Source: Thermoplasmatales archaeon (GTDB taxonomy: Archaea; Thermoplasmatota; E2; UBA202; JdFR-43). Taken from it: a DNA stretch of 34,263 nt. Below the pieces are notes generated by a model that saw only the letters and a program-made list of their open reading frames with translations, did not search any database and was not told the DNA's origin. The DNA lies in the NCBI GenBank assembly GCA_014361195.1, contig JACIWA010000010.1:1-34263 (forward strand), in the 5' to 3' direction. The translations under genes and the position numbers were made by a program. How positions within the stretch are numbered: position 1 is the first letter of the stretch; each line of letters begins with the position of its first letter. Shown piece by piece: positions 26,121 to 34,263 of this stretch.

Positions 26121-27830
26121 ATGAAGAAAGTTGTGGTAACATTTGCGGTATTGGTATTGCTGATTACATATTTCAACGGAGAAGTTAAATCTGAGAATAA
26201 AAAAATTGATTACAGAGTAATAAAATATGCTTTTCCAATAGGAACAAAAATAGAGAGGATTGATGTAATTCCATTAAATGTCAAAGAAACACATGTTTTC
26301 AATAAAAAATCTATAAGTTTTATTGCGGATAATATGAGGGAAAAGAAACTTTATATGGAATATGAAATACCTGAAAAATGGTATGAATATAGTATAGGGG
26401 TTGGGATGGATAAAGGAGAGAGATGTATATTTTTAACCCTTTATCTTTACAATATAATATCTTCAAGTGATAAATTCTATGAGGCAAGCGACTTTGATAT
26501 AAAAATTGATTATTCTTTGCCAGAGAAAACATTCGCTTCAGCATATGATTTCCTAATAATTTCTCCTGATGCATGGGTAAGCGAGCTATCTTTGCTTAAA
26601 GAGCATAAGGAGAGCAAGGGAATAAAAACAATAGTAGTAGGGTTAAGTGAAATTTATACTCATCCATCTGCTGTGCATGGAAGAGATGATGCAGAAAAGG
26701 TGAAGTATTTCATAAAGAATGCAATTGAGGAATGGGGAATAAAATATGTAATGCTTGTTGGAGGAAGAGCTTTTGGATATCAGGAAAAGTGGATTATGCC
26801 AGTAAGATATACAAATCTTGATGATAGAAGTGGATGGGAAACCAGTTATTTGAGCGACTTATATTTTGCAGATATATATAAATATGAAAATGGCTCGATC
26901 GCTTTTGAGGACTGGGATAGCAATGGAAATGGAATATATGCGGAATGGAAGGGAATGAAAAGAGATAACCTGGATCTATATCCTGATGTTTATGTTGGCA
27001 GGCTTGCTTGCAGGAATAAATATGAGCTAAAAATAATGATTGATAAGATAATTAATTATGAGAATAAACCATTTGAGAATTTCAAAAAATTCATATTAGT
27101 CGGTGGCGATTCCTATGACGACAACCATAAATACATTGAAGGTGAGCTCGCTACATGGGAAGCTTACAAATACATGCAAGATTTTGAGGCAATAAAATTA
27201 TGGGCATCTGAAATAGATTTAAGTTCAAAAAATATAGTGAATGCGATAAATGAAGGGGCGGGTTTTGCATATTTTTGTGGGCATGGAAATCCAATGAGCT
27301 GGAGCACTCATAAACCTGGAAATTTCAATGAGTGGGAAGAAGGTCTGCAAATCTTTGATATGCCATTTTTGAGAAATGGATATGAATTACCCATTGTAGT
27401 TATAGGTGGATGCCATAATAGCCAATTCAATGTGAGCATATTCTATTCATTTGATAAGGAGAAAGTCTGGAAGGGTGAAAACGCTCCAGAATGCTGGAGC
27501 TGGTGGTTTACACGCAAAATAAATGGCGGGGCTATAGCAACGATTGGAAATACCGGGCTTGGTTACCATGGAAGTGAGGATGAAAACAAAGATGGAATTC
27601 CTGATTATTTGCAGGTTTTGGATGGATGGCTTGAAATAAACTTTTTCAGAATATATAAGGAAGGGGTTGATATTCTAGGGATGCTTCACTCACAGACAAT
27701 AAAAGAGTTTATAGATTATTTCCCTGGAGATTCAAATATGCCATTGAAATATATTATAGATGTAAAAGTTGTTCAGGAATGGCTATTGCTTGGTGATCCT
27801 ACTCTTAAGATAGGTGGCTATAGAGAGTAA
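26121..27830 (+). CDS. Secreted C25 (gingipain-like) cysteine peptidase
   Basis: A 569-residue exported peptidase. A signal peptide (MKKVVVTFAVLVLLITYF) is followed by a propeptide-like beta-rich region (about 25-140). The catalytic domain has H388 in FCGHGNP and C431 in VIGGCHN, the His-Cys dyad of clan CD, family C25. FDFLIISPDAW-type, MLVGG, YVGRLACR and LLGDPTLKIGG segments are other family marks. There is no obvious sorting signal or C-terminal membrane helix, so it may be released or held by another factor. Such peptidases are abundant in protein-degrading sediment archaea. A second gene with a similar N-terminus begins at 34019. Confidence 0.9.
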   Translation: MKKVVVTFAVLVLLITYFNGEVKSENKKIDYRVIKYAFPIGTKIERIDVIPLNVKETHVFNKKSISFIADNMREKKLYMEYEIPEKWYEYSIGVGMDKGERCIFLTLYLYNIISSSDKFYEASDFDIKIDYSLPEKTFASAYDFLIISPDAWVSELSLLKEHKESKGIKTIVVGLSEIYTHPSAVHGRDDAEKVKYFIKNAIEEWGIKYVMLVGGRAFGYQEKWIMPVRYTNLDDRSGWETSYLSDLYFADIYKYENGSIAFEDWDSNGNGIYAEWKGMKRDNLDLYPDVYVGRLACRNKYELKIMIDKIINYENKPFENFKKFILVGGDSYDDNHKYIEGELATWEAYKYMQDFEAIKLWASEIDLSSKNIVNAINEGAGFAYFCGHGNPMSWSTHKPGNFNEWEEGLQIFDMPFLRNGYELPIVVIGGCHNSQFNVSIFYSFDKEKVWKGENAPECWSWWFTRKINGGAIATIGNTGLGYHGSEDENKDGIPDYLQVLDGWLEINFFRIYKEGVDILGMLHSQTIKEFIDYFPGDSNMPLKYIIDVKVVQEWLLLGDPTLKIGGYRE

Positions 27831-28963
27831 ATTATTGCGGAAATAATTATAACCAATATTGCAGGAGGGAGAAGGAGTTTATATAAATCCGTGAGCTTTG
27901 GCTTGAAATACTCGTATGTCAGTACTAAACAAGGATGAACAGGAGATACCAAATAACCAATGAACGAGGAAATATATAATAAGCTCACTAGTTTGATATC
28001 AAATATAAAGGGAGATAGTAAAGGATAGAGTATTCCAATTGCTGCCAAATTATTTGCGGTGATTGTTCCAACCAAAAATGGGATTATTGCTATCATTGCC
28101 ACTGGATTAAAATTTGAGAGATAGGAATATATTATTTCCGGGGCTTTCATCGAAATTATCATATTTTTCAAAAGCATTATTCCAAATATTGCAATTAATA
28201 AGCTAACTAATCCTTTTTTTAAAAAATAAATTTTTCTCTTCATGGATATTGCCACCGCAAGAATAATTCCAATGCTAAGAGAGATTAGAAAGGATAAGTA
28301 GGTATGCATAAAAAATGATAAAATTATTGCCAATGAAACAGTTAAAAGAATAGGAAATATTGCAAGATAATTACCCTCACTCTCCTTTTCCTTTTTCCTA
28401 GAAAATTTTTTAACAACTGGCATAGCTAAAAAGAAGCTCAATAAAAATATAGGAAATTGCATCAAAATCAATTTGTATATACTAACGCCAGCCAGATCCG
28501 CAACAAGAACAAGAGGAGTTGAAATTGGTAAAATTATAAACCATACATGTCGATACCATAAATTCAAAAAAGTCAGCTCATTTTTCTCTCCTCCTTTGTC
28601 TATAAGTGGCGCGGACATCAGCGCCCCGCCAGGCACAGGGAGCATACCAAACAACGAGGGTATCGCAATCAAAAGCCCTCTGTAAGAAAGTTTTTGGCTC
28701 AAAAATTTTACAAGCTCCCCCATTGCCCCTCCTTCTTGTAGAATTGTGGATAACAGATTTATTAAAAAAATTATGAATATTAAAGCTATTACAGTCCAAT
28801 CTGTTGCGGTCTTATATAGATTTTCTGGCAGATTTTTATAATCAAATACTGAAAGAATTATAATTCCCGCAAAAACTGATATTGCAAAATTTTTTCTTTT
28901 TGCAACCAAAAAAATGATAACTGAAAATGACAAAAATATTGATAATAGAGTTAAATCAATCAT
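27818..28963 (-). CDS. DUF401 polytopic membrane protein (ion-transporter-like)
   Basis: A 381-residue membrane protein with ten to eleven helices. The signature is PSLFGMLPVPGGALMSAPLI, and a related motif in the second half reads YLVSPVHPCLVLT. This is the DUF401 family, a distant relative of NhaC/GntP/CitM-type ion transporters in which two re-entrant loops line the transport site. The substrate is unknown. Its ATG overlaps the taw1 stop as ATGA, so the two are co-translated. Its 3' end overlaps the convergent C25 peptidase gene by 13 bases. Confidence 0.85.
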   Translation of the reverse strand: MIDLTLLSIFLSFSVIIFLVAKRKNFAISVFAGIIILSVFDYKNLPENLYKTATDWTVIALIFIIFLINLLSTILQEGGAMGELVKFLSQKLSYRGLLIAIPSLFGMLPVPGGALMSAPLIDKGGEKNELTFLNLWYRHVWFIILPISTPLVLVADLAGVSIYKLILMQFPIFLLSFFLAMPVVKKFSRKKEKESEGNYLAIFPILLTVSLAIILSFFMHTYLSFLISLSIGIILAVAISMKRKIYFLKKGLVSLLIAIFGIMLLKNMIISMKAPEIIYSYLSNFNPVAMIAIIPFLVGTITANNLAAIGILYPLLSPFIFDIKLVSLLYISSFIGYLVSPVHPCLVLTYEYFKPKLTDLYKLLLPPAILVIIISAIIYSL

Positions 28964-29874
28964 ATCTCCCTCTTTTTTCCTCTTCCGAGCAATACAACCC
29001 TTGAATCAACCCTTTCATCTTCTATTTTATAGCCTGTTAAATCACTTAATTTTTCTGCAAAATTTCTTATTTCTTCATGATTTGGCATATTGTTGCGATG
29101 CATTCTCTCTTTTGAATAGCCAACGTGCATATATCCTTTTGGCTCTATAAACCATGCATCGCTTTTTTCATCTATCCTGGCATATTCCTCTTCATAACCA
29201 AGATTCCAATCCTTAACCAGAGTATGTCTTATAACTGTTCTCGTATTTAATGATGGAAGCAATTCAATTGTTTCGTTAATTTTTTTCCAGCCATCTTTGA
29301 CTAATGGGCAACATAATTTCTTATACAAATCTTCATTAGGGGCAGCAATTGTTACATAAATCTGTTTTGGCAATGTGTCCATTTTTTCAATAAATTCTGG
29401 ATTTGTTCCATTTGTTACAAGAAAAGTTGTCATTCCCCTTTTATGGCATTCTTCAAAAAACTCGCTCAGGAAGGGATATAAGGTAGGCTCACCAGTTAAT
29501 GAGCATGCAACATGCTTTGGTTCAATTGCCTCTTTCCAATCCTCAATTCTAACCTTCTTGTTTCCTTTATAACCGCTCAAAAGCCTTCTTTGTTCCTCAA
29601 TACTCTTTTCCAATATAAATTTTGGGTCATCCGCCTCTTCCCTTTTAATTTCTTTTAGAGTAAAACCTTGAAAACGCCAGCAGTAAAGACATTTCTGAGT
29701 GCAATGATAGGCGGCAGGCGTCATCTGCAAGCAACGGTGGCTTTTTATTCCATAAAAAGTGCTCTTGTAACATGGTATATTTTCAACCAGTGCTTTTTTT
29801 AGCCAGTAGCAGAGTTTTACAGCGGAGTGCCTGCCAACAACTGCATAACCCTGCTTTTCCAGTATCTCCTTCAC
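28960..29874 (-). CDS. taw1: tRNA 4-demethylwyosine synthase Taw1/TYW1
   Basis: A 304-residue radical SAM enzyme that condenses pyruvate carbons onto N1-methylguanosine-37 of tRNA-Phe to make the tricyclic wyosine core. C58, C62 and C65 (CTQKCLYC) bind the SAM cluster. C22, C35 and C48, spaced 13 and 13, bind the second cluster, as in Methanocaldococcus Taw1. CSLTGEPTLYP, FLVTNGT and MHRNNMPNHEE are further landmarks. GTG at 29874 is chosen because an ATG two bases upstream is out of frame and stops at once. A TATA-like aataaattaata lies about 20-25 bases upstream on the minus strand. The DUF401 gene follows. Confidence 0.94.
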   Translation of the reverse strand: MKEILEKQGYAVVGRHSAVKLCYWLKKALVENIPCYKSTFYGIKSHRCLQMTPAAYHCTQKCLYCWRFQGFTLKEIKREEADDPKFILEKSIEEQRRLLSGYKGNKKVRIEDWKEAIEPKHVACSLTGEPTLYPFLSEFFEECHKRGMTTFLVTNGTNPEFIEKMDTLPKQIYVTIAAPNEDLYKKLCCPLVKDGWKKINETIELLPSLNTRTVIRHTLVKDWNLGYEEEYARIDEKSDAWFIEPKGYMHVGYSKERMHRNNMPNHEEIRNFAEKLSDLTGYKIEDERVDSRVVLLGRGKKREI

Positions 29875-29909: not shown

Positions 29910-29946
29910 TTTAGGCACAAATGCCAAAACCTTTAAATTTATAAAT
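29910..29946 (+). promoter_or_regulatory. Palindrome, BRE and TATA box of the SPFH operon
   Basis: TTTAGGCA (29910-29917) and TGCCAAAA (29922-29929) form an inverted repeat matching in seven of eight positions around CAAA. Immediately after comes acctttaaatttataaat (29929-29946), with the TATA box tttaaatt about 23 bases before the ATG at 29959. The palindrome sits exactly over the BRE position, where a regulator would control TFB/TBP loading. It also lies between this promoter and the divergent taw1 promoter. Confidence 0.5.
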
Positions 29947-29958
29947 TGTTTTACAATA

Positions 29959-30477
29959 ATGGTAGATATTAGAGAAAGAATTGAAGAAGACAGGGGGGTC
30001 TTAAAAAAAATACAGCTTATTATTCCTGGCTATGAAGGATATAGAAGGAGGGAGGATATAAGAAAAGCGGATAATCTTTTAAGAAATCAACTTGCTGACA
30101 AACTAAAAATTGCAAGAAATGATATAGAGGGTGTAAGAAGAAATCTTGTTTATAAATATGAAACAAGAAATCTGGAAAAGATAGGAGATTTGCTTAACTA
30201 TTTCCAGAAAATAGACGGGCAATTAAGACATGCGGAGCATGGCTATTCTGGAATTTCACCTGCAATAAGAATAGAAGAGGAAGAGCTGAATAAGCTATAT
30301 GAATTTGACTATTCAATGGCAAAAATTATAGAAGGGATAATCAATGAGGCGAAAAAAATGAGGAGTGTTAAAGAGGAGGAAATGCTTGATGAAATTGAAA
30401 GAATAAGAGAAATGCTTGGAGAATTTGAAAAGACTTTTAAAATGAGGATGGTTTATATTACAGGAACAGAGGTGTAA
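29959..30477 (+). CDS. Helical protein of the SPFH operon
   Basis: A 172-residue, mostly helical, charged protein with no signal peptide or membrane helix. It contains IIPGYEGYRRREDIRKADNL near residue 22, HAEHGYSGIS near 92 and a tyrosine-rich LYEFDYSMAKIIEG. I recall actinobacterial and chloroflexal proteins with the same IPGYxGYKxKExRRxADKLLR opening, also next to SPFH genes, so the pairing appears to cross domains. It could be a soluble partner of the SPFH scaffold or a very divergent PspA-like helical hairpin, but neither is shown. The stop is one base before the SPFH start codon. Confidence 0.72.
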   Translation: MVDIRERIEEDRGVLKKIQLIIPGYEGYRRREDIRKADNLLRNQLADKLKIARNDIEGVRRNLVYKYETRNLEKIGDLLNYFQKIDGQLRHAEHGYSGISPAIRIEEEELNKLYEFDYSMAKIIEGIINEAKKMRSVKEEEMLDEIERIREMLGEFEKTFKMRMVYITGTEV

Positions 30478-30478
30478 A

Positions 30479-31633
30479 ATGTTATTTGGAGGAAGTAAAA
30501 GGACAGATGCAACAGCTGGGGGCAAAGAAGGGATAATAGGGGCAATGACAATTGCGTGGGATGATGCCTACAAGAGAAATTTTATAATGTGGAAAGTTCC
30601 CAGGAATATAAGGCTAAATGACAATATAGTTGTAAGAGAAGATGAAATAGCGGTTTTTTATAGAGATGGAAAGGTTCTTGCATATTTAGATAAGCCAGAT
30701 AGATATGCTTTAACTAGCCAAAATGCTCCAATTCTTGGTGGCCTTATAAGAGCTTTATCTGGGGTAAAACAGCAGGCGGAAGTATATTACATACAAAAGA
30801 AGGTTTTTGATGGGAAGTTTGGGAGTAAGCAACCTTATCAATTTAAAGACAAGGAGTTTGGTATTGTAAATCTAAGAGTTTTTGGAGAATTCCGCTATAG
30901 AGTAAATGAGCCTGTTAATTTCATAAACCAATTTGTTGGAACACTTAACTACCAAACAAGTCAAGAAGTGGAAGAAAGAATAAAGGAGCAGATGGTTCTC
31001 TTAGTATATGATGCAATTGGCCATCTAAAAGAGAAGGGAATGGGAGTAACTGAACTTGCTCCAAATTTAACAAATATAGAGCAGATTGTACTTGAAAAAT
31101 CAAAAGACCATTTTGGTATGTATGGGATTGAAATAAATAAGGTATCCGGACTATACATAAATCTCCCTGAAGAAGTTCAAAAGGCGGTTGATACAAGAGC
31201 AAGTATGCAAGTTTTGGGAACAAATTATATGCAATACCAGGCGGGGCAGGCAATGAGAGAAGCAGCGCAAAATCCATCTGGCACCGCTGGCGCTGGCGTT
31301 GGCATAGGCGCTGGCATAGGAGCGGGCTATGCAATGATAGGGAGCATGGCACAGGCAATGCAACCCTCTCAAACACAACAACCCTCCCCACAACCCCAAG
31401 GCAAAGCTTGCATAAAATGCGGAGTGATAATTCCGGCGGATGCTAAATTTTGTTCATCTTGTGGGGCGAGGCAAGAAAAAATTGAGTGCCCAAATTGCAA
31501 AGCACCTCTGCCAGCTGATGCAAAGTTTTGCTCTTCCTGTGGAACCGCTTTAGGGAGTAAAAAGTGCTCAAATTGTGGAGTTGATATGCCTGCAAGTGCA
31601 AAGTTTTGTCCGAATTGTGGAAAGAGCGTGTGA
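30479..31633 (+). CDS. SPFH/Band-7 protein with three C-terminal zinc ribbons (YdjI-like)
   Basis: A 384-residue protein. Residues about 25-240 form the SPFH (stomatin/prohibitin-like) domain, with the RNIRLNDNIVVREDEIAVFY opening typical of the YdjI, so-called virion-core-like branch. A glycine-zipper stretch (268-294, GAGVGIGAGIGAG) could insert in or pack against a membrane. A Q/P-rich linker (295-309) leads to three near-repeats of C-x2-CG...PADAKFC-x2-CG (311-384), each half a double zinc ribbon. SPFH proteins form oligomeric membrane microdomain scaffolds, and the ribbons probably recruit partners. In Bacillus, YdjI acts with YdjG and PspA in envelope stress. No N-terminal signal is seen. 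Confidence 0.87.
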   Translation: MLFGGSKRTDATAGGKEGIIGAMTIAWDDAYKRNFIMWKVPRNIRLNDNIVVREDEIAVFYRDGKVLAYLDKPDRYALTSQNAPILGGLIRALSGVKQQAEVYYIQKKVFDGKFGSKQPYQFKDKEFGIVNLRVFGEFRYRVNEPVNFINQFVGTLNYQTSQEVEERIKEQMVLLVYDAIGHLKEKGMGVTELAPNLTNIEQIVLEKSKDHFGMYGIEINKVSGLYINLPEEVQKAVDTRASMQVLGTNYMQYQAGQAMREAAQNPSGTAGAGVGIGAGIGAGYAMIGSMAQAMQPSQTQQPSPQPQGKACIKCGVIIPADAKFCSSCGARQEKIECPNCKAPLPADAKFCSSCGTALGSKKCSNCGVDMPASAKFCPNCGKSV

Positions 31634-31638
31634 TAGGT

Positions 31639-32388
31639 ATGACAAGTATAAAATGCAATAAATGCGGGGCATCAATTGAAATAGAGCCTGGCACAAAATT
31701 TGCTAAGTGCGAATATTGCAATTCTCAGATGTATATAGACAAAAGTGGGGTTGGATTCTTTTATATTGTTGAAATGAAAATAAAAGAGGAGAATGCAAGG
31801 GGCATATTTAAAAGATGGAGTGCTGGCTCTGCTATGGCGAAGGATTTGGAAAATGAGGCAAAAATAGTGAAAATGATTCCTGAATATTTCCCACTGTATA
31901 TGTTCAAAAGAAATGTAGAGGGTAAGGAGGCAATTTATTTTGAGCCAGCAAAATCAACAAGTTTGCCAGGAATGCACGCACTAAAAGTTCCAGCAGGGGA
32001 TATAAAAATATTTGATCAAAATTACATAGTTGATCCGAGAGCACAGATTATACAACCTGATTTGGGGATGGATGCTTATCTGAATAATCTGCCCGGTAAA
32101 GCGGAAGAGCAAGCTTTAGTATTCTTTCCCATATGGTATATTGAATATAGTTACAAAGGAAATATCTATAATGTTGTAATAGATGCATCTTCTGGTGAAG
32201 TGTTTTCTGAAAAATTTCCAACCAGGGAGAGTTATCCATACATTGCGGTTGCTTCCCTTGGATTCTTTTTATTCCTGATCTATGGTATAATCTCCCTTTT
32301 CTGGAAATTCACATATGGCTTAATCGGAATGGCTATAACAACTCCTATTCTATTCCTTGCATCCTATTTTGTGGCAAAAAATATGTGA
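31639..32388 (+). CDS. Zinc-ribbon membrane protein of the SPFH operon (first of three paralogues)
   Basis: A 249-residue protein. A zinc ribbon with C6, C9, C24 and C27 opens it, an alpha/beta domain follows (about 35-190), and two membrane helices end it (about 197-220 and 225-245). It shares with the next two proteins the ribbon, a YFPLYMF-type motif and a later FFPIWYIEYSYKG segment. The ATG at 31639 is chosen because it follows the SPFH stop and an AGGT-like site; an earlier ATG at 31606 would lie inside the SPFH zinc ribbon. The layout matches the zinc-ribbon plus membrane-anchor plan of bacterial YdjG. Confidence 0.78.
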   Translation: MTSIKCNKCGASIEIEPGTKFAKCEYCNSQMYIDKSGVGFFYIVEMKIKEENARGIFKRWSAGSAMAKDLENEAKIVKMIPEYFPLYMFKRNVEGKEAIYFEPAKSTSLPGMHALKVPAGDIKIFDQNYIVDPRAQIIQPDLGMDAYLNNLPGKAEEQALVFFPIWYIEYSYKGNIYNVVIDASSGEVFSEKFPTRESYPYIAVASLGFFLFLIYGIISLFWKFTYGLIGMAITTPILFLASYFVAKNM

Positions 32389-32394
32389 GGTGAT
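32387..32394 (+). promoter_or_regulatory. Shine-Dalgarno overlapping a stop codon in the SPFH operon
   Basis: gaggtgat overlaps the TGA stop at 32386-32388 and lies three bases before the ATG at 32398, coupling translation of two of the paralogues. Confidence 0.75.
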
Positions 32395-32397
32395 TGG

Positions 32398-33417
32398 ATG
32401 GAAATATCTATCGGGATTTCGTGTCCTTCATGCGGGGGCGCTTTAAATGTTGAAGAAGGTAAAAAGGTTATTTCATGCAGGTACTGCGACGCCCTTATAT
32501 GGCTTGAGGGTGATGAAGGAGTTTATACAGTTATGTTTGCAAATAATGTTACGAAGGAGAAGGCAATTTCTCTTTTAAATGAATGGTTTGGTAAAAAATT
32601 GAAGGCGAGGGATTTGAAAAGGAGAGCGGAAATAACTGAGATATTCCCCATTTATTTACCATTCTGGAGAATGAAGGCAAGAAGTGCGGGATGGGTATGC
32701 GGATATAGAGAGGAAAGGCATTATGATGCTGTCAGGAAAACTACAACTGTTAAGAAAGTCCCAATGGAAAAAATGGTTTTCAGAGATTTTGACTGGACGC
32801 AGATTGCATGTGACGCAGGAGACATTGGAGTAAAATATCTTAGAAACTTGCAGGGAAATACTATTAATGCAAACGCTGACCAAATACCCACTTTTGAGGT
32901 AACAACTTCAAAGAGTGATGCAATTAATTTAGGAATTGAGAAAATAAGGCAGGAAGCGATAAAAAGTGCTGGGGTTGAAAATATAACTTTCCAGAAGATG
33001 CATGTAATACCAAAATCATTCATGCTTATCTACTATCCTGTATGGATTGCAAGATATAAATATAAAGAGAGAATGTATTTTGCGACAATTGACGGAGTGA
33101 CTTCAAAGGTCATTGCGGGCAGGGCGCCGGGCGATGCGCTATACCAGGCAATGATTATGACCGGCGGAGCAATTTTGGGGGGAATAATTTCATCCCTCGG
33201 TATTTGGACAATTGGTTCATCAACTGGATTAGGAATTTTTGCTCTTATTGGAGGGTTTATCATTTTTATTGCAAGTTATATGTTTTTCAGGCATGGAAGC
33301 GAGATAGTTGAAGGAGATATAGAGAAAAAATATGGTCTTCCATTAGAATCTATTAAAAATATTAAGAATATCAGAATAGATGCTCCGGGAAATGTTTTTG
33401 GAGGTGGAAAAATATGA
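32398..33417 (+). CDS. Zinc-ribbon membrane protein of the SPFH operon (second paralogue)
   Basis: A 339-residue protein. A zinc ribbon with C9, C12, C27 and C30 opens it, followed by a long alpha/beta region containing FPIYLPFWRMKA (about 83) and YYPVWIARYKYKERMYFATID (about 208). Two membrane helices lie at about 245-290 and a hydrophilic C-terminal tail follows. The two PxW motifs align with those of its neighbours, showing a shared fold. It is the largest of the set because of an insert around 95-135 (GWVCGYREE...) and the extra tail. A strong Shine-Dalgarno sequence precedes it, and its stop overlaps the next ATG by four bases. Confidence 0.78.
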   Translation: MEISIGISCPSCGGALNVEEGKKVISCRYCDALIWLEGDEGVYTVMFANNVTKEKAISLLNEWFGKKLKARDLKRRAEITEIFPIYLPFWRMKARSAGWVCGYREERHYDAVRKTTTVKKVPMEKMVFRDFDWTQIACDAGDIGVKYLRNLQGNTINANADQIPTFEVTTSKSDAINLGIEKIRQEAIKSAGVENITFQKMHVIPKSFMLIYYPVWIARYKYKERMYFATIDGVTSKVIAGRAPGDALYQAMIMTGGAILGGIISSLGIWTIGSSTGLGIFALIGGFIIFIASYMFFRHGSEIVEGDIEKKYGLPLESIKNIKNIRIDAPGNVFGGGKI

Positions 33418-33986
33418 AGGTTGTGCAGGTTAAATGTCCAAAGTGTAAAAATTTATTTTTTTCAAAAACAACTGACATGGCTTTTATTTGCGAAAATTGC
33501 GGGACATTACATATAAGAGAAGATGAAATAAAAATTTTTGATTATGAATTTTGGAAATTCTCGAAGAATATGGAAGGGGAGAAATTTTACATGCCTTTCT
33601 GGAAAATAAATGTAACAATAAATGTAAAGGAGAGCAAGGTTGTTGGATTGATGAAAATTGCAAACTTATTAAAAGGTGACACTGGAAAAATGGATATTTA
33701 TATCCCAGCAATAGATTGCACGCCAGATGATTTTAGAAAATGGTCAAATCTTTTAACATTTGATAAATTAAATTTTGAAATTGAAAAAACAACAAAAATT
33801 CCAAGGATTCCGCTGGCAATAGGAGAAAAAGAAGCGGAAAAGCTTGCGGATTTTCTTGTTCTAACTTATGAAGCGGAAAAACCAGGAGTTTTGCAATATA
33901 TAGATTATGAAATGAAAATAAATGAGAAAAAAATTGTATATGTGCCCGCTTATCTAATTAATAACAAATACGTAATAGGGTTATAG
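33414..33986 (+). CDS. Zinc-ribbon soluble protein of the SPFH operon (third paralogue)
   Basis: A 190-residue protein with the same opening zinc ribbon (C8, C11, C26, C29) and the YMPFWKINVTI motif (about 60), followed by an alpha/beta region. It ends VYVPAYLINNKYVIGL without any membrane helix. It seems a shortened, soluble version of the two previous proteins that keeps the domain linked to the ribbon. Its ATG overlaps the preceding stop as ATGA. It closes the five-gene operon. A T-rich stretch (about 33990-34008) follows, which may serve both as terminator and as promoter of the next gene. Confidence 0.76.
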   Translation: MKVVQVKCPKCKNLFFSKTTDMAFICENCGTLHIREDEIKIFDYEFWKFSKNMEGEKFYMPFWKINVTINVKESKVVGLMKIANLLKGDTGKMDIYIPAIDCTPDDFRKWSNLLTFDKLNFEIEKTTKIPRIPLAIGEKEAEKLADFLVLTYEAEKPGVLQYIDYEMKINEKKIVYVPAYLINNKYVIGL

Positions 33987-34018: not shown

Positions 34019-34263
34019 ATGAAAGCATTGGCAATTGTAATATCTATTATAATGATTGCTCCTGTTGCATTGCAAAAAAGCAACGAAAATATTTTCTATG
34101 GCTATACAAATTTTATTTACAGAGAAGGTTATCCTATTCTGCCATATAAATATGAAACATACATATTTCCATTTGGAACAGAAATAAAGGAAATAGAAGT
34201 AATGGAAAAAAATGTTGAAAAAATAAAAATAAGTGGAAAGATAGAGCCCGCTCCAGCACCTTA
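34019..34263 (+). CDS. Exported protein, N-terminal fragment resembling the C25 peptidase propeptide (cut by window edge)
   Basis: From ATG 34019, 81 codons run open to the window end. The protein starts with a signal peptide (MKALAIVISIIMIAPVALQ). After it comes YPILPYKYETYIFPFGTEIKEIEV, similar in layout to the VIKYAFPIGTKIERIDVIPL of the complete C25 peptidase at 26121, which lies at the same distance from the signal. It is therefore probably a second secreted C25-type peptidase, though the catalytic domain lies outside the window. Confidence 0.6.
   Translation, partial: MKALAIVISIIMIAPVALQKSNENIFYGYTNFIYREGYPILPYKYETYIFPFGTEIKEIEVMEKNVEKIKISGKIEPAPAP

Follow-up and report, generated by a model that had tools for sequence, protein, structure and literature searches.

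A five-gene SPFH and zinc-ribbon module in a Thermoplasmatales archaeon as a possible relative, independent of PspA, of the membrane scaffold encoded by Bacillus ydjGHI

Introduction

Membrane-stress systems of archaea are poorly known, and more than half of the archaeal genomes carry no Psp domain according to one survey (PMC9239133). How cells of this kind might preserve their membranes is the question raised by five genes, here called P1 to P5, of a Thermoplasmatales archaeon (assembly GCA_014361195.1, contig JACIWA010000010.1). They lie intact and closely packed on the forward (+) strand at 29959–33986, as called from open reading frames (ORFs), in the window, which is the whole 34,263-nucleotide stretch of DNA that was analyzed. 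P1 encodes a helical protein, P2 an SPFH protein of the YdjI type and P3 to P5 zinc-ribbon proteins. An original prediction had described the locus as an SPFH/zinc-ribbon module reminiscent of the Bacillus subtilis PspA operon, in which the first gene might take the place of PspA. In B. subtilis the membrane localization of YdjI requires YdjG/H, YdjI recruits PspA there, and loss of YdjI reduces membrane fluidity (PMC8581546); YdjI-type proteins are discussed in the context of Psp loci in two further papers (PMC9239133, PMC11237479). Our analysis confirmed the five-gene module, and with about even confidence we read it as a relative of the membrane scaffold encoded by Bacillus ydjGHI that is independent of PspA and in which P1 is the obligate partner of the SPFH protein. 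A conserved SPFH module that lacks PspA offers a hint of how membranes could be maintained in such archaea, shows that PspA can be separated from the SPFH/zinc-ribbon core, and provides the unnamed P1 family with a defined genetic partner, so that its function becomes directly testable.

Results

One line of evidence for this reading is the linkage of P1 to an SPFH gene. In 129 of the 134 archaeal and bacterial loci with enough downstream sequence, P1 is followed on its own strand by an SPFH domain at a distance of at most 400 nt. This figure is a description rather than a sample of independent events, since a P1 match was the basis for picking the loci and many of them are related. Absence of conserved linkage in relatives had been named as a refuting outcome, and the linkage proved to be strong. 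As for the exceptions, a ribbon-protein gene separates P1 from SPFH in L101, a divergent SPFH-like ORF below the threshold lies nearby in L167 and L169 as judged by reading the sequence, L171 is a lone distant P1 paralogue without SPFH, and L173, also without SPFH, is a weak match to a P1 fragment that was dropped from the stricter count. The distant paralogues in L171 (6301–6831) and L173 (5865–6455) stand beside genes named by eye as encoding ribosomal protein and zinc-type alcohol dehydrogenase. Locus L166 (6103–8516) holds a second P1-SPFH pair, whose SPFH protein lacks ribbons, immediately 5' of an NMD3-like gene, with ribosomal protein genes alongside (by eye).

Co-occurrence across the Thermoplasmatota points in the same direction. 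A strong match to the Band_7_1 model is found in 114 of 117 P1-positive genomes as opposed to 7 of 273 P1-negative ones (table 114/3/7/266; Fisher p 1.6e-85, with genomes that are not independent and ancestry uncorrected), at thresholds of E < 1e-15 for P1 and E < 1e-12 for Band_7_1 that were fixed after the lists had been inspected. In two of the three genomes with P1 but without strong Band_7_1 (G094, G262), P1 was matched close to the end of a contig. Moreover, the sister species (G001, the sole other member of the genus examined) carries all five genes at 80–93% identity. The dN/dS ratios (non-synonymous to synonymous substitution rates) are 0.04–0.11 for all five genes and are approximate, as dS exceeds 1 and is near saturation; all five genes are under strong purifying selection. 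This selection, together with a linkage conserved across phyla, makes the module more than a product of chance.

P1 (29959–30477, 172 amino acids) is all-helical and has no predicted transmembrane segments. Its AlphaFold2 model (predicted local distance difference test, pLDDT, 86.5; predicted template modelling score, pTM, 0.83) is a compact helical bundle with helices at residues 4–21, 31–65, 72–91, 107–136 and 139–168, and the invariant residues of a 57-member alignment fall mostly into two loops, PGxxGY and GYxG, represented in P1 itself by IPGYxGY (residues 22–28) and GYSG (95–98). In a Pfam search no family fits P1, and its model has no fold match in the PDB at E < 0.2. A named relative is NCBIfam NF047596, the LIMLP_15305 family of Leptospira, which is matched over nearly the full length (E 1.3e-15, 57.8 bits) and also by other P1 relatives; as the curated equivalog cut-off is 210 bits, P1 is homologous to LIMLP_15305 but not an equivalog, and that family has no assigned function. 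A search with the single sequence recovered P1 in just 4 of 59 close genomes; with a profile built from four sequences it turned up in 123 of 390 Thermoplasmatota, in 105 of 203 good genomes and in 62 of 155 genera. A scan of named genomes gave 129 P1 relatives, 80 of which were retained; these include members of the Bathyarchaeota, Thermoproteota, Nitrososphaerota, Chloroflexota, Actinomycetota and Acidobacteriota. The description of the module as an archaeal system was thus too narrow, because P1-SPFH pairs occur also in the latter three, bacterial, groups. Fusions of P1 to SPFH or ribbon domains were absent from the loci examined, and one bacterial query found P1 on no plasmid.

Whether P1 is PspA in disguise can be judged from several lines of evidence. 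PspA_IM30 (PF04012) was not found in this genome, as had been proposed, and Snf7/ESCRT-III (PF03357) has no match here at E ≤ 1. PspA scores above the cut-off in just 3 of 390 Thermoplasmatota and in just 4 of 43 other P1-positive genomes, all four bacterial. A PspA gene elsewhere that always pairs with the operon had been named as a refuter, and no such pairing emerged; P1 is carried by G219 and G244, two of the three Thermoplasmatota with PspA, so that the two proteins are not mutually exclusive. P1 could be imagined as a functional replacement of PspA, a membrane-remodelling helical protein recruited by the SPFH/ribbon scaffold: it shares operons with YdjI-type SPFH genes in genomes nearly all of which lack PspA, and it is modelled as all-helical. 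We consider this unlikely. P1 is not related to PspA in sequence or profile, as profile-profile comparison (hhalign) gave a probability of 1.1% although the same PspA profile recovers PspA/Vipp1 structures from the PDB at 1e-32. Nor does the modelled bundle contain a long hairpin, its longest helix having 35 residues, and no PspA, Vipp1 or ESCRT-III fold occurs among its top 50 PDB matches. P1 as PspA, and as a PspA/ESCRT-III fold, was therefore rejected, and with it the suggestion that P1 is a look-alike of these proteins; an analogy of role alone is conceivable.

P2 (30479–31633, 384 amino acids) matches the Pfam family Band_7_1 (PF13421) at E 1.8e-35 with its SPFH domain (30602–31213); the same model also matches in B. 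subtilis, and a P2 profile gives weak matches to stomatin and prohibitin structures. No transmembrane segment is predicted in P2. A Gly/Ala-rich, glycine-zipper-like stretch recognized by reading the sequence (31280–31342, about residues 268–288) reaches a best 19-residue hydropathy of 1.27 at residue 270, and three C-terminal zinc ribbons (31409–31621) are indicated by matches to DZR/zinc-ribbon models in three stretches and by six CxxC pairs. Relatives of P2 usually end in three or two ribbons, and the tail can be replaced by SHOCT (L084, 7485–8471; L053, 1535–2530; L112, 1681–2688) or by HTH_17 (L056, 3441–4472; L085, 7569–8612), so that it looks like an exchangeable adaptor. Such swapping would suit a protein quality-control or chaperone unit, in which membrane proteins or substrates of proteases are collected by the SPFH assembly, with the ribbons as substrate or protease adaptors and P1 as a co-chaperone, and Band-7 proteins in Psp loci have been proposed as assembly chaperones (PMC11237479). 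Clustering of the neighbours brought up no protease, ATPase or chaperone gene as a prominent same-strand partner, and we regard this explanation as unlikely.

The remaining genes encode P3 (31639–32388, 249 amino acids; zinc ribbon, middle domain and two C-terminal transmembrane helices), P4 (32398–33417, 339 amino acids; zinc ribbon, a long-stranded beta domain in the AlphaFold2 model and a transmembrane hairpin) and P5 (33414–33986, 190 amino acids; a soluble, divergent relative of P3 and P4). Each has two CxxC pairs; the ribbons of P3 and P4 are N-terminal, and two C-terminal transmembrane segments are predicted in each of these two proteins and none in P5. The P4 hairpin spans residues 247–298 (pLDDT 84.9, pTM 0.72 for the model), and the domain of P4 has no PDB match (best E 0.06, TM-scores near 0.1), so no fold was assigned. 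An iterated profile of each of the three proteins recovers the other two. The original prediction of three paralogous ribbon proteins, two anchored and one soluble, hence stands as to their relatedness; they form a divergent family and not a set of near-copies. As the ribbons resemble those of TFIIB, RNA polymerase and S27e and some P2 relatives end in HTH_17, the module might be a membrane regulator linked to nucleic acids, with TFIIB-like ribbons that bind DNA or RNA. With P3 and P4 anchored in the membrane, and ribbons being common protein-contact modules, we rate this as very improbable.

The complete order P1-SPFH-ZNF-ZNF-ZNF (ZNF, zinc-ribbon gene) occurs in about 20 loci, all from Thermoplasmatota-type archaea. 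In the archaeal loci L157 and L185 the three ribbon genes lie 5' of P1-SPFH; in the actinobacterial (Thermoleophilia) locus L096, P3-, P4- and P5-like genes are followed by P1, SPFH and a DUF2207 protein, and Bathyarchaeota hold a reduced set of P1, SPFH and one soluble ribbon protein. Of the 95 loci whose flanks are complete, 71 have a same-strand ribbon-protein gene (at least 40 bits) in the neighbourhood of P1. Among other neighbours, a small protein of about 114 amino acids with 3–4 transmembrane segments and no Pfam match stands beside P1-SPFH in 39 loci, mostly in Bathyarchaeota (e.g., L078, 8443–8787), and in bacteria a DUF2207 membrane protein and a two-transmembrane protein with a C-terminal zinc ribbon join the module (L096, 4551–6491 and 6539–7222; L056, 349–2244 and 2296–2817). 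Two genes identified by eye, for an FAD-dependent oxidoreductase and a class I lysyl-tRNA synthetase, are frequent neighbours in Bathyarchaeota and were judged to reflect synteny of the clade and not to be parts of the module.

In the sister species the five-gene block is intact at a different genomic site, which suggests that the genes move or are retained together. In the tree, the P1+SPFH pair of our archaeon groups with two genomes of a different group within the phylum (f44; Shimodaira-Hasegawa-like approximate likelihood ratio test, SH-aLRT, 99%), and relatives of its class (f4) carry a distinct P1+SPFH type on the opposite side. P5 is present in 2 of 17 genomes of its own family, and the rest of the family lacks both P1 and P5. 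The module was likely transferred into this genus, with differential loss as a possible alternative history. Patchiness within the family and probable transfer are also what an anti-virus defence or conflict system on a mobile block would display, and the sister-species module adjoins a type III CRISPR-type cluster (L127, 4295–10200; Cas10-like and repeat-associated proteins, by eye). We hold this explanation to be barely conceivable: comparison with the PADLOC defence models gave no convincing match, just weak zinc-ribbon ones at E ≥ 0.001, about half of the well-assembled Thermoplasmatota have P1, and the genes are strongly conserved and encode no effector-like domain.

At the locus itself all genes lie on the + strand with spacings of 1, 5, 9 and −4 nt, so that P1 to P5 are read as one transcription unit and the proposed tight operon is borne out. 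The five genes were correctly delimited as the extent of the module, with the start at 29959 rather than at 29910. P3 begins with the ATG at 31639, its sister-species orthologue likewise having 249 amino acids, instead of the TTG at 31606 used by the mechanical ORF caller. Inspection of the letters suggests a TATA-like A/T-rich element, CCTTTAAATTTATAAAT (29930–29946, + strand), as a candidate archaeal promoter 5' of P1, and a T-rich stretch 3' of P5 (33990–34008, + strand) as a possible terminator. Upstream lies a divergent wyosine-type radical SAM gene (28960–29874), and farther 5' a protein of peptidase family C25 (gingipain type) is encoded at 26121–27830. The downstream gene begins at 34019 and is cut at 34263; its 81 amino acids have no Pfam match and a similarly secreted-looking N-terminus.

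Discussion

How might these five proteins work together? P3 and P4 would sit in the cytoplasmic membrane via their C-terminal two-helix hairpins, with zinc ribbons and middle domains presumably facing the cytosol, and could tether an assembly of P2, a protein that lacks a membrane helix. The P1 bundle with its two conserved loops may be the obligate partner of P2 by physical contact, and soluble P5 might supply an extra contact. If the analogy to B. subtilis YdjGHI holds, the assembly would most likely organize or protect the membrane under stress.

Several points weigh against this picture. Cage-forming SPFH proteins have a long helix or coiled coil after the SPFH domain, and P2, with little room for one, seems to lack it, which makes a ring or cage unsure. 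In 24 of the 95 full-flank loci no ribbon protein reaches 40 bits, so that anchors are not universal. P3 to P5, finally, are likened to YdjG/YdjH by type of protein and not by sequence. As a guess, P1 supplies the helical part that P2 is short of. More broadly, and more tentatively than the scaffold reading itself, P1 may be the founder of an undescribed family that universally partners a single branch of the YdjI-type SPFH proteins, that either replaces PspA or supplies a helical wall missing from these proteins, and that together with a new family of zinc-ribbon anchors could form a membrane-maintenance system of several archaeal phyla and some bacteria. Taken as a whole, the original prediction held for the operon, the likeness to ydjGHI, the absence of PspA and the little-described nature of the system, and failed for P1 as a PspA/ESCRT-III protein.

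Comparison With Known Systems

The closest known system is the B. subtilis pspA-ydjG-ydjH-ydjI operon. Both encode a YdjI-type SPFH protein without a membrane helix together with zinc-ribbon membrane proteins, here P3 and P4 (PMC8581546, PMC9239133, PMC11237479), whereas the archaeal module has no PspA and instead contains the unrelated helical P1 and three ribbon proteins, among which no TPM-type YdjH was identified. Archaeal ESCRT loci with Meth_adaptin similarly place the gene of a zinc-ribbon-bearing SPFH protein beside membrane-remodelling genes, but they encode Vps4, ESCRT-III and adaptin-like proteins (PMC10936438), none of which is among the five genes; the Pfam search for Vps4 and adaptin-appendage proteins covered these five only. 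With the stomatin, prohibitin and flotillin assemblies P2 shares the SPFH domain, and it differs in its C-terminal ribbons and genetic partners, in the absence of an N-terminal membrane helix and in the apparent lack of a long coiled coil. In the accessible text of the open-licence literature searched, with subscription papers and supplementary files outside its scope, neither the P1 family nor the five-gene set is described, in line with the expectation that such a scaffold is little described.

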